From NCBI GenBank assembly GCA_007127625.1, contig SKYZ01000168.1:1-15632 (forward strand): DNA of 15,632 nt, in the 5' to 3' direction. This document shows positions 6,373 to 12,125 of the stretch, piece after piece. This stretch comes from Aquisalimonas sp. (GTDB lineage Bacteria; Pseudomonadota; Gammaproteobacteria; Nitrococcales; Aquisalimonadaceae). Position 1 is the stretch's first letter; each line of letters opens with the position of its first letter. The notes under the pieces are model-generated. The model searched no databases. It was not told the DNA's origin and worked only from the letters and a program-made list of their open reading frames with translations. The position numbers were made by a program, and so were the translations under genes.

Positions 6373-6522
6373 TCAAAGCCGGATGATGTCCTCGCGCATG
6401 GCGGCCAGTTTCGCCAGCAGGCGGTTCTGGGTTGACACCGGCACGTGCTGGTGTTCCATGACCTCGATGAGGTTCTCTACCAGCGCATTGAAGTCCGCTT
6501 CGGTGATGTCCCGGCCGCCTGC
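6373..6522 (-). pseudogene. 3' remnant of a group 1 truncated hemoglobin gene
   Basis: Reading the minus strand from about 6522 to the TGA at 6373-6375 gives about 47 residues with the C-terminal signature of group 1 truncated hemoglobins: DITEADFNALVENLIEVMEH, then VPVSTQNRLLAKLAAMREDI. In intact members this is the G/H-helix region (pattern ...ITEADF..VV..L..AM....VP...QN.LLA.LAPM..DI). The N-terminal ~90 residues, including the heme-ligand histidine region, are missing, and there is no start codon or ribosome-binding site. The fragment lies in a different frame from the upstream chimeric frame, which reads through its first 40 bases before stopping at 6477. It is the last piece of a collapsed operon. 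Confidence 0.78.
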
Positions 6523-7172
6523 ACTGGACGATTGTCCAGCACGACAATGGCGGCGGCCTTGCCCTTGGCGTCCGCTCTTTCCAGTAGTCGGGGGAAGGGA
6601 AACCGGGCGTCCCGTGCGCCCTCGGCATCGGCGATCATGTCTCCGTCCACGGAGGCAACCATGGCGGCATCGGCACCGATGCGGCCGCCGTGGTTGCGCA
6701 GGGCGGAGGCGATGGTCGTCGCCTCGCCGGAGGCCACGGCTTCCCGGAAGCCGAAGTCATCGGCCAGCAGTTCGGCATTGTCCAGGAGCTGTTCCTGCCG
6801 AGCCGCCAGGAGGGACTGGAATACCCGGCCACCCACTGCCAGTTCCTCGCGCGCCTGGTCCTTGGAGAAGGAAAACACATGGTGGCGGACCTGATCGTTG
6901 TTGGGGAAGCGAACCGAGGCGCCGCGCTGAATGGCCTGTGCATGGGGCAGGAATTGCTGGTCGCGCTGGTCGACCTCGCCCTGCGGGCGCGGGTCGTCAT
7001 CGGCGCGACTGCTCAATCCAGGGGACTCGATATAGGCGACGGCATCGCCGAGCGGTTCTCCGTCAGAGCCGTTGACTGAAAGTGTGAGGCTGCCTGCCTG
7101 CAACGGCTGCAGGGCGATGAGAGCGGTCATGACTAGAGCCGCGAGCGCGAGACGGCTAGGGACAGGCGTCAT
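6477..7172 (-). pseudogene. Chimeric remnant: secreted cupredoxin-like N-terminus joined to a GGDEF/EAL-type sensor fragment
   Basis: The open frame encodes 231 residues (243 from an upstream ATG at 7208). The ATG at 7172 is chosen because AAAGGAG lies six bases before it. A signal peptide (MTPVPSRLALAALVMTALIA...LQAG) leads into a 'methylamine utilization'-type cupredoxin domain: AYIESPG, then FLPHAQAIQRGASVRFPNND and VRHHVFSFS. The expected second half, with the GCNIHDxM copper ligands, is absent. From about 6849-6863 the sequence changes abruptly to REELAVGGRVFQSLLAARQ, DDFGFREAVASGEATTIASA and NHGGRIGAD. These are the hallmark of the extracytoplasmic sensor domain of a family of diguanylate cyclase/phosphodiesterase proteins, here without membrane helices, GGDEF or EAL. 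The last 13 residues are out-of-frame hemoglobin sequence. A secreted chimera might still be made, but the loss of all functional parts argues for decay. Confidence 0.75.
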
Positions 7173-7265
7173 GCGTCGCTCCTTTCGAGAACCGAGTAGT
7201 GCGCACACGCTATCACGGCGTCATGGAGGCTCCCACGGCGCCTGACGGGCGATGTGATGGACTCC

Positions 7266-8093
7266 TCAGAAGCCGCCGCGCAGGGTGAGGAACGGTCCGT
7301 CCTGGCGGGGGGCGCCGGCCATGCGACCCAGATCCATCCAGCCGGCGCCGAGCTGTACCTCCGGCGTCACGGCGTAGCTGACGTAGGCAGCCCACCACGG
7401 GTCTCCGGGGTCATCCGCCAGGTAATCCGGCTGCTGACGGTATTCACCGGCGAGGTGAACAGCCCGGGTGAGTGCCGCGTGGATTCCGCCCTCCAGTTGC
7501 ACGGCGCGGCTGTCGCCGTCGGCGCCACCGAACCCGAACAGCCCGCCGGCATTGGCGCGGGTCCAGCGGGCGCTGGCGTGGAGACGCACGGCGCGCTTGT
7601 CGCCAAGCCGGTAGCCCGCACCCACCGTGGCCAGGGCGTCCCAGTCATCGCGCCGCCGGGGTTCCGCCGCGCCCAGGCTGTCTTCCAGACCAAAATTGCT
7701 CTGGCGGCGATAGCTGACGCCGAGGCTGGCCGCCGGTGCCAGCGGCCGGCGGGCGGAGCCCAGCAGCCGCACCCTGGCGCCGAAGACGTTCTGGCGTACA
7801 TCGTCGCTGCTGCCCACGCCGAGATTGGGCTGCGATGCGGTGAGTTCCCAGCGGTCGTTCACCACCAGGCCGGCGCCGACGGAGGTGAACTGGAAATCCC
7901 GCAGGCGGGCGTGGGTGATGAATGCGCGGCCGCCGAGGCCGTCGGCGGGGCCGTTCAGGCCCGGCGCCGGGGTCAGCACGCCGCCGGTGCCACCGTCCAC
8001 CGGGGCGGGCAGTCCGCCGCGGAACGGCTGTGCCGCCAGTGTGTCTGCGGCGATGAACAACAGCAGACCCAGAAAGATGCGTTTTCGGACCAT
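7266..8093 (-). CDS. DUF3034 family outer-membrane-type protein
   Basis: The 275-residue product has a clear signal peptide (MVRKRIFLGLLLFIAADTLAA) followed by a glycine-rich segment and repeated amphipathic beta strands with aromatic ends, closing with FLTLRGGF, as expected for an outer-membrane beta barrel. The run GGTGGVLTPAPGLNG, then GLGGRAFITHARLRDFQFTS, and NVFGARVRLLG plus LFGFGGADGDSRAVQLEGG match my memory of DUF3034 (PF11231). The function is unknown. The family commonly sits beside a cupredoxin-like 'methylamine utilization' gene and a GGDEF/EAL gene, which is the arrangement whose remains follow downstream. The ATG at 8093 has GGGGTG six bases upstream; a GTG at 8102 is the alternative. 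The gene follows purN by 48 bases in the same direction. No frameshift is visible, so it may still be functional although its partners are lost. Confidence 0.82.
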   Translation of the reverse strand: MVRKRIFLGLLLFIAADTLAAQPFRGGLPAPVDGGTGGVLTPAPGLNGPADGLGGRAFITHARLRDFQFTSVGAGLVVNDRWELTASQPNLGVGSSDDVRQNVFGARVRLLGSARRPLAPAASLGVSYRRQSNFGLEDSLGAAEPRRRDDWDALATVGAGYRLGDKRAVRLHASARWTRANAGGLFGFGGADGDSRAVQLEGGIHAALTRAVHLAGEYRQQPDYLADDPGDPWWAAYVSYAVTPEVQLGAGWMDLGRMAGAPRQDGPFLTLRGGF

Positions 8094-8141
8094 GCGGAAC
8101 ACCCCGTGGTCGTTATCACCCTTGCCGCACCGGCGGCGGGA

Positions 8142-10001: not shown

Positions 10002-11054
10002 ATGGGAAAACGGTTGTTGTGTCTGCTTCTGCTGTGCCTGTTCCCGGCTCTGGGGCACGGCGCCAGCAGCATGTTCGACGCCCGCGTGGCAGTGGATAGC
10101 CAGGCCACTGACGAGCGGCGTGATGCCACCCGGGAAGGATTGCGCGGGATTCTGGTCCGGCTGACCGGGCTGGAGGTGCCTGAACAGCACCCCGAGCTTT
10201 CATCCCTGCTCGGAGACTCCGGGCGGTTCGTGCAGCAGTACGGTTTCGACGATACCGATGACGGCCTGGAGCTGGTGGTGCGTTTCGACGGTCCGGCGAT
10301 CCAGAGCCGGCTGGTGGAGGTGGAAGTCCCGATCTGGTCGGTGGATGCGCGCCCGCGCACCGTTGCCTGGGTGGCCGTGGACCGTGGAGGCGACCGGCGG
10401 ATCCTCGGTGGCGATGAAAGTACGGACTTGCAGGACGCCCTGCGTCGGGCCGCGCAGAGCGCCGGCTTGCCGTTGCTGTTTCCGCTGATGGATCTGGAAG
10501 ATCAGCGAGCGGTGAGTTCTTCGGACATCTGGGGAGGTTTCCGTGAGCCGATTCTCGAGGCCGCGGAGCGCTATGATGCCGAGGCCGTGCTGGTCGGTCG
10601 GGTCTCCCGTCGCGGTGATGGCTGGCGCACCCGGTGGTCCATGTTCTGGGATGGCGATTCCCACGACTGGACCGTGGAGGCACCCGAGCTCGAGGCCGGT
10701 CTGGCCGATGCCGTGAGCCAGGGCGTGACCCAGCTGGCCAGCCTGTACGCACGGGTCCCCGATCCGGATGCGGTGGGGAGCTTCACCCTGCGTGTTCGGG
10801 ACATTAACGATCTCCGCGGCTACGGCGACGTGACGCGGTACCTGCGCGGGTTGCGCGACGTGGAAACCGTTGAACCGGTGCGGATCGGAGAGCGGGAAGT
10901 CGACTTCCGTATGCGAGTCCAGGGATTGACTGACCGGACGTTGGAGCACCTGCGCAGCGGCCGCCCGCTCACGGAGGTGGAAGATGCCTCCGGGGATGAT
11001 AACGGCGACGATGATGCCCTGCGCCCCGATTACCTGTTCCGGTTCGGGGGCTGA
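10002..11054 (+). CDS. Secreted DUF2066 domain protein
   Basis: The 350-residue protein starts with a signal peptide ([20 protein letters not shown], cleavage near ASS) and continues with the typical DUF2066 opening [20 protein letters not shown], then [13 protein letters not shown]. Middle segments such as [14 protein letters not shown] and [13 protein letters not shown], together with [18 protein letters not shown], also match the family. The C-terminus is markedly acidic ([18 protein letters not shown]). The domain is a periplasmic protein family of unknown function found beside purMN and hda in many gammaproteobacteria. GAGGAATTC precedes the ATG at 10002, which decides this start over an in-frame ATG at 9975. 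It converges with the DUF481 gene across a strong hairpin. A direct role in purine synthesis is not implied by its position. Confidence 0.85.
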
Positions 11055-11058
11055 AGGC

Positions 11059-11090
11059 CACCCGCACCGCCGATGGAGGCGGTGCGGGTG
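11059..11090. terminator. 13-bp hairpin between convergent genes (bidirectional terminator candidate)
   Basis: CACCCGCACCGCC (11059-11071) pairs perfectly with GGCGGTGCGGGTG (11078-11090) around a six-base loop. It begins four bases after the DUF2066 stop and ends 12 bases before the DUF481 stop, so it serves both converging transcripts. There is no T-run on either side, so it is not a textbook intrinsic terminator. Confidence 0.6.
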
Positions 11091-11102
11091 TGACCGGACG
11101 GG

Positions 11103-12125
11103 TTACCAGCTGTACCCGGCAGTAAGCACGTACGCCGTGTCGATGCGCCGATTGTCCCCGGGGGGCTGGTTCTCGTAGTCCACGTTCACCTGGAATGTCC
11201 CCGTCATGCCGATGACGAAGGGGAAGCGAACGCCGGTGCGGCTGTTGATGACCACATCGTCGGTGTCTTCCAGATTGACCAGGCCAGTCTGGCTGTGGAA
11301 CAGGCGAATACCGTTGCCGGCGAAGCGTTCCTCGTAATCGATGCCCCAGCGGCCGGCCGGGTTGGACTCGTTCTCCGCCACGTAGCGATCCTCGTTGACA
11401 TAGCTCACGCCAAGCTCCGCGGAGAGGTTCCGCGTCGGGAACTCGAAGAACTGGAAGCCGAGGCCGACACCCACCGACGAGCGCAGGCGCAGGTCGCGGA
11501 AGCGGTCACGGGCGAGGGACACGTTGCTGTTCAGGTAGAACCGATCCGAGACGAAATGATCGTAGCGCGCGGAACCGGAAGCATTGTCCACGGTTTCCTC
11601 TCCGCCTTCCTCGGAACGGTTGAAGTCGGCGGCGAAGCGGATGCGGTTGACGTCGGTGCGGACCGTCGCGTCGGCGGTACCGCTGTAAGTCTGGCTGCGG
11701 GTATTACCGTCAGTGATACGGGCGCCGAGGCTGATGTTGCCGGTGGTTCTTACCGGCTCACGCACTGGCGTATCCGGCCCCGTGCCGCGCCGGATCGCCG
11801 TCACCGGGAACGTGACGGGATCGGTGAACTGCTCGCTGTCCAGCCGGATCTCGCCATCGTCGCCCTCCACGGCCCGGCCTCTGACCTCGGTGCCGTCTTC
11901 CATCAGAACCTGAATGATGTCGTCGGTTCGTAACTGGGCCACCAGATTCAGGGGATAGGAAAGGGTCTGGTCGGTATTCTCCGGCCTGAAGCTTACGGTA
12001 CCGCCGTCGATCTCCACGAACTTCCCGGTGATACGGTCGCCGTTCTGCAGGATGAGGGTGTCGGCCAGGGCCCCTTGGGCCCACAGTGCGGTGATCAGGG
12101 AAGCACTCAGGACGATATTTCGCAT
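11103..12125 (-). CDS. DUF481 family outer-membrane protein (YdiY-like)
   Basis: The 340-residue protein has a signal peptide (MRNIVLSASLITALWAQGALA) and then a short periplasmic-type beta domain starting DTLILQNGDRITGKFVEIDG and containing DIIQVLMEDGTEVRGRAVEG. From about residue 130 there is a DUF481 barrel (GNISLGARITDGNTRSQTYS ...) made of alternating strands and ending in the aromatic TAYVLTAGYSW, a typical outer-membrane beta signal. Function is unknown; E. coli YdiY is the nearest named relative I know, and some members respond to acid or salt. The start is ambiguous: AAGGAG lies 13 bases before the ATG at 12125 but seven before an in-frame TTG at 12131, and that AAGGAG is part of a small hairpin. 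The gene is divergent from hda. Confidence 0.85.
   Translation of the reverse strand: MRNIVLSASLITALWAQGALADTLILQNGDRITGKFVEIDGGTVSFRPENTDQTLSYPLNLVAQLRTDDIIQVLMEDGTEVRGRAVEGDDGEIRLDSEQFTDPVTFPVTAIRRGTGPDTPVREPVRTTGNISLGARITDGNTRSQTYSGTADATVRTDVNRIRFAADFNRSEEGGEETVDNASGSARYDHFVSDRFYLNSNVSLARDRFRDLRLRSSVGVGLGFQFFEFPTRNLSAELGVSYVNEDRYVAENESNPAGRWGIDYEERFAGNGIRLFHSQTGLVNLEDTDDVVINSRTGVRFPFVIGMTGTFQVNVDYENQPPGDNRRIDTAYVLTAGYSW

Follow-up and report, generated by a model that had tools for sequence, protein, structure and literature searches.

What is the origin of the gene fragments that follow one another on the minus strand of a 15,632-bp contig of Aquisalimonas sp. (SKYZ01000168.1)? This stretch, hereafter the window, is the entire contig C8 of assembly G000 (497 contigs, 83% complete). 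It carries an intact gene coding a DUF3034 protein, followed by a 231-codon open frame and by a 47-codon tail of a truncated haemoglobin (tHb) gene. Comparison with G002, the sister of G000 and a complete genome from within its genus, shows that they are very probably the decayed remains of a conserved envelope-signalling operon. The operon of G002 (locus L010) consists of five genes in one direction, coding DUF3034a, a 226-residue cupredoxin, a 792-residue sensor with the organization dCache_3-HAMP-GGDEF-EAL, a second DUF3034 protein (DUF3034b) and a 146-residue, apparently exported tHb. Gene dcd adjoins the operon at its tHb end and faces the operon genes.

The window compared with its sister genome

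G002 is collinear with nearly the whole window and the operon region is interrupted by two gaps (BLASTN against L010). At junction 1 (window position 6860) L010 10180-10711 is missing (532 bp), and at junction 2 (6518/6519) L010 6718-9837 (3120 bp). Deletion 1 took the second half of the cupredoxin gene and the first 43 sensor codons while keeping the reading frame. Deletion 2 took the rest of the sensor, the entire DUF3034b gene and the first 99 tHb codons; the last 13 codons of the 231-codon frame cross the tHb remnant in a different reading frame. No long repeat, such as might collapse an assembly graph, was found at either junction. The longest words common to the 41-bp breakpoint stretches in G002 (6 and 5 bases) are about chance level, and therefore no deletion mechanism is claimed. 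The rest of G000 was searched for the missing 3.1 kb, and no copy with the identity that an orthologue should have was found.

By Pfam the remnants give low signals: the matches of the cupredoxin piece to Cupredoxin_1 (E=0.041) and of the sensor piece to dCache_3 are under the curated cut-offs, and the tHb tail has no Pfam match. A comparison of the sensor remnant with 113 relatives of the sensor gave 90.4% identity for the best intact one. The cupredoxin remnant keeps the first His, and its C-x2-H-x2-M copper loop is gone, so that three of four copper ligands are lost (alignment A5, in which all four type 1 ligands are present in 23/23 full-length relatives). The sensor piece has neither membrane anchors nor any cytoplasmic domain, EAL included. 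The tHb remnant starts beyond the proximal His, a residue present in 17/17 rows of intact relatives. Together with the removal of DUF3034b, these losses show that the pathway is dead in the window's lineage.

A first-pass annotation made from the sequence of the window had recognized half a cupredoxin, a sensor piece and the last ~47 tHb codons downstream of an intact DUF3034 gene, which the comparison with G002 confirms; the intervals where it placed the junctions (6845-6870 and 6500-6530) were both correct. Its two deletions with loss of most of the tHb gene also stand. However, the segments removed are not the middle parts of the genes, since the cupredoxin lost its end and the sensor its start, followed by the rest of the sensor. 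The operon had been counted as four genes, while the nearest intact relative has five, a second DUF3034 gene having been lost entirely with deletion 2. The intact upstream DUF3034 gene had been taken as an operon member. In the tree the DUF3034b proteins of G002, G006 and G011 group together (support 0.98) and DUF3034a is a separate long-branched copy. By this phylogeny DUF3034a is a divergent, genus-level extra copy, and the operon's own DUF3034 (DUF3034b) is gone from the window.

Table 1. Features of the operon remnant in the window and the evidence for each.
Feature	Position	Strand	Evidence
DUF3034a, intact gene	7266..8093	-	PF11231 E=1.2e-38; AlphaFold 2 (AF2) barrel model; ratio of non-synonymous to synonymous substitution rates (dN/dS)
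Cupredoxin remnant: signal peptide and first half	6867..7172	-	77% identity to G002 cupredoxin residues 1-102
Junction 1: 532 bp of G002 missing	6857..6866	-	BLASTN against L010, base view
dCache sensor remnant, residues 44-158 of the 792-residue protein	6519..6863	-	88.7% identity to G002; dCache_3 E=7.9e-5
Junction 2: 3120 bp of G002 missing, all of DUF3034b included	6513..6524	-	BLASTN against L010, base view
Group 1 tHb remnant, apparently exported type: last 47 codons, proximal His lost	6376..6516	-	95.7% identity to G002 tHb residues 100-146
Chimeric open frame of 231 codons spanning junction 1 (coordinates include the stop)	6477..7172	-	Same fusion in cluster P0001

Beyond the window, 24 contigs of G000 were compared with 418 kb of G002 as an assembly control; no overlap exceeded the threshold, so that this control is uninformative. 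Two large contigs were compared with the whole of G002. Contig C6 (L140) is collinear with it except for one gap at 11144, where 448 bp (10989-11436 of G002 C1) are missing. The match of contig C17 (L150, 15.3 kb) to G002 is confined to 968 bp at one of its ends, and the contig is either a strain-specific island or a foreign contig.

The operon and its proteins in other bacteria

One genome per species was scanned for tHb, yielding 48 loci of which 35 are titled Pseudomonas (two from one P. quercus strain). The canonical order cupredoxin, dCache-GGDEF-EAL, DUF3034, tHb, all in the same direction, is found in 39 of these 48 loci, one with the sensor split into two frames and one with an extra EAL gene. 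The non-canonical loci code DUF3034-tHb only (six), DUF3034-tHb-cupredoxin-dCache (one), DUF3034-tHb-cupredoxin (one) and tHb alone (one). DUF3034 adjoins tHb in 47/48. Starting from DUF3034, the family is present in 15/274 genomes of the class, G000 included. In the 13 informative loci (G000 and L114, whose match lies at a contig end, were left out) tHb is found nearby in 8, cupredoxin in 9 and dCache-GGDEF-EAL in 7, one of the latter with frameshifts and one with DUF3034 inverted. The association of tHb with DUF3034 is thus roughly as strong as that of the cupredoxin or the sensor. Chance was considered as a source of the tHb-DUF3034 association and rejected: with three globins per 3 Mb it would give, by our estimate, ~1% within 6.5 kb, against the 8/13 seen. 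Membership of the tHb in the operon, the part of the first-pass annotation that most called for a survey, is confirmed by these counts, and an ancestral operon is likewise supported. The annotation had DUF3034 first in order, which does not hold because the usual order puts it third, after cupredoxin and GGDEF/EAL. A literature search, outside of which most subscription papers lie, gave two papers that mention the name DUF3034; among the titles and abstract openings listed none dealt with this gene set, and the operon is not described in the portions covered of PMC3770913 or PMC6629876.

Against PF01152 (cut-off 21) the intact tHb of G002 reaches 44.2 bits. The profile of the operon tHb family matches group 1 tHbs (PF01152), namely mycobacterial HbN (1idr) together with other group 1 structures. 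It differs from them by a lipobox or signal-peptide-like start, by an invariant Cys pair (C-x6-C) and by its operon partners, among them a probable barrel of the outer membrane and a cyclic di-GMP (c-di-GMP) enzyme; in the window copy the haem site is lost. A lipobox pattern is present in 46/58 tHbs (pattern search, with several starts ambiguous), while L040, L081 and L083 have starts that resemble, by eye, plain Sec signals. From these amino termini the operon-partnered subfamily looks exported, perhaps often as a lipoprotein. Note that a second, distant tHb (L013, contig C178, 6237-6608; 23% identical) remains in the window's genome.

Among the 46 sensors longer than 600 residues, pattern searches found the EAL, N-L/I/V-S and E-x-T-E motifs in all 46, LKID in 45, EGVE in 43 and DDFGTG in 41. 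According to these active-site motifs the intact sensors are probably c-di-GMP phosphodiesterases, and their GGDEF domains are mostly degenerate. Two loci combine the same input domain with other outputs. In G000 itself, contig C486 (L026, 763-5834, minus strand) codes a cupredoxin, a dCache_3-HAMP-class III cyclase and then a patatin protein that also has cyclic-nucleotide-binding domains and an NTE P-loop-like domain, forming a parallel module. In G157 (L105, 7997-12417) a DUF3034 gene is divergent from a cupredoxin gene and from one in which dCache_3-HAMP is followed by a Ser/Thr protein kinase, making a third kind of output.

A phmmer search of the G002 cupredoxin against PDB sequences gave no match up to E=1, and the cupredoxin fold was therefore predicted by modelling. 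The model of the L045 relative has a predicted local distance difference test score (pLDDT) of 86.0, and its top matches by Foldseek and VIA-align are of the cupredoxin fold. In this protein (L045, 4123-4806) the cupredoxin domain (about residues 57-142) seems to be inserted in a second beta-sandwich, with CnaB/carboxypeptidase D rows spanning 22-203. The operon cupredoxin differs by this apparent second sandwich around the domain from type 1 cupredoxins such as plastocyanin, amicyanin and pseudoazurin; the window copy is cut in the middle of the domain.

We know of no function assigned to DUF3034. DUF3034a of the window has 275 codons, with its ATG at 8093 and its stop ending at 7266 (queries started at 8096, one codon upstream of the ATG). 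It scores 133.6 bits against PF11231 (cut-off 25), and DUF3034b of G002 scores 329.3 bits. The AF2 model of DUF3034a (mean pLDDT 74.5) has 12 strands, and the final residue of the protein is Phe. Each of the 50 rows listed by Foldseek is a barrel of the outer membrane, with FapF, Omp33 and a COG4313 channel as best matches and nearest solved structures. DUF3034a is thus predicted by its model to be a 12-stranded outer-membrane beta-barrel. At 9-17% identity and a template modelling score of about 0.5 to these channels, the barrel class is alike while the same transport role is not evidenced.

Age of the loss and alternative explanations

Relative to G002, dN/dS is 0.053 in the tHb tail (47 codons), 0.125 in the dCache piece (112) and 0.322 in the cupredoxin piece (102), compared with 0.015 to 0.188 in six surrounding intact genes; for DUF3034a it is 0.19. 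Signal peptides, such as the one contained in the cupredoxin piece, are fast-evolving anyway. For the fragments of cupredoxin and dCache, the replacements on the G000 branch relate to those on the G002 branch as 18:10, with 6 unresolved; for the six intact genes the ratio is 55:66, with 95 unresolved. These values fit a loss that occurred late on the G000 branch, with slight relaxation at most. The recent loss proposed by the first-pass annotation is supported and, overall, the annotation holds for the ancestral operon, the two deletions, the time of loss and the tHb partner, but not for gene number, order and the identity of the upstream DUF3034.

Of 14 genomes of the family, G002 and G006 have the whole block next to dcd, G000 and G011 have parts of it, and 10 lack it, two of these retaining DUF3034a alone. 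G011 (L014 / L039, 3694-5313) has intact DUF3034b and tHb genes preceded by only the carboxyl-terminal end of an EAL domain, and is a separate partial loss. In another family, the canonical operon of G123 (L101, 7373-11909) has two sensor frameshifts and a DUF3034 stop, possibly due to sequencing error; it is intact in the genus-mate G246 (L103).

The patchy spread of the block could also be explained by a mobile four-gene cassette gained separately by the G000/G002 ancestor, by G006 and by G011, G000 having then lost a recent gain. DUF3034 was found anywhere in the genome in only 6/14 family genomes, and G006 has two short frames between tHb and dcd, with purN not adjoining the block. Yet G002, G011 and G006, which belong to three genera, all have the tHb end of the block facing dcd and their DUF3034b proteins group together, which makes independent gains unlikely; the deletions stand either way, the G000 remnants being at the same place. 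The 231-residue chimera might instead be a new protein under selection, joining a secreted half of a cupredoxin to part of a dCache domain, as its in-frame junction 1, common to protein cluster P0001 and protein P0002, and the dN/dS of the dCache fragment would favour. It has, however, lost three of four copper ligands, the membrane anchors and the output domain, beyond junction 2 it enters the tHb remnant in another frame, its tail differs in P0002 and there is a slight, non-significant replacement excess on the G000 branch, so that selection for the fusion is very improbable.

An artefact, in which the intervening DNA is present in the organism and was dropped at chimeric reads of assembly or amplification, draws on the fragmented state of G000 and on the 448-bp gap of C6, the sole other large G000 contig that is comparable lengthwise with G002. 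Against it, the fusion recurs in P0001 (four sequences, longest contig 17,097 bp), whose 231-residue representative differs from the window frame by one residue. P0002 (a 1,060-bp contig) repeats junction 1 with five differences in the cupredoxin part and another tail, for which the search of all fetched loci gave nothing convincing (best E 0.019). Neither a repeat able to collapse the assembly graph nor a displaced copy of the 3.1 kb was found. Relatives conserving the same 231-residue protein would speak against the reading of the first-pass annotation; the fusion does occur in another sequence, but G002 and other relatives have separate full-length genes. An artefact is accordingly held improbable and a real deletion strongly favoured.

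Several observations weigh on the other side of an operon that decayed by real deletions. The four P0001 members, the window's own perhaps among them, may all derive from a single sample. Junction 2 is not present in P0002, the contig of which could be chimeric. The evidence being assembled contigs, an amplification chimera or assembly error may be shared by related data sets. Relaxed constraint is not proven (fragments versus intact genes, Fisher p=0.094). As for the operon, outside Pseudomonas the canonical order is found in only 4/13 tHb loci (L040, L047, L056, L062), 4/13 DUF3034 loci have no partner at all (three of them on contigs <13 kb), and the stricter copper-loop pattern is present in 45/52 cupredoxins, the other 7 not matching. 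The link of tHb and cupredoxin to the sensor is one of gene neighbourhood.

A putative envelope pathway

With the window thus read as the remains of a conserved operon, a function can be proposed for its intact form. DUF3034 would be an outer-membrane channel. The tHb, held in the envelope and often as a lipoprotein, would bind a haem ligand such as nitric oxide or O2, while the cupredoxin would exchange electrons or copper in the periplasm. The periplasmic dCache domain may read the state of both proteins and, via HAMP, control the EAL phosphodiesterase, lowering c-di-GMP. The mechanism as a whole is put forward tentatively. It is likewise possible, rather than probable, that the intact operon represents an undescribed form of envelope sensing in which an exported globin, a cupredoxin and a channel feed one dCache_3-HAMP type of receptor. 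Its output would be exchangeable, a notion as speculative as the former: c-di-GMP phosphodiesterase in most loci, class III cyclase in C486 and Ser/Thr protein kinase in G157.

Control of c-di-GMP by haem sensors is known from H-NOX or NosP proteins with GGDEF/EAL partners and from globin-coupled diguanylate cyclases. As in these systems, a haem protein is genetically linked to a c-di-GMP enzyme in the operon. In contrast to them, the haem protein is a truncated globin, apparently exported, that would act through a periplasmic dCache domain; the copper protein and the probable channel of the outer membrane are additional. H-NOX and NosP systems are defined by an HNOB or FIST domain, neither of which was found when DUF3034a of the window and four of the five operon proteins of G002 were scanned with Pfam. 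Globin-coupled sensors are defined by fusion of the globin to the output domain; in the 39 canonical loci tHb and sensor each have a frame of their own and do not belong to this class.

The family offers a natural series of the operon, from intact (G002, G006) through two deletions (G000) and partial (G011) to gone (the 10 others). For DUF3034 the comparison yields a predicted place in the cell and a class of fold, together with three partners that recur. The pathway provides a concrete hypothesis, testable in common laboratory strains of Pseudomonas, that the haem and copper state of the envelope may control c-di-GMP.
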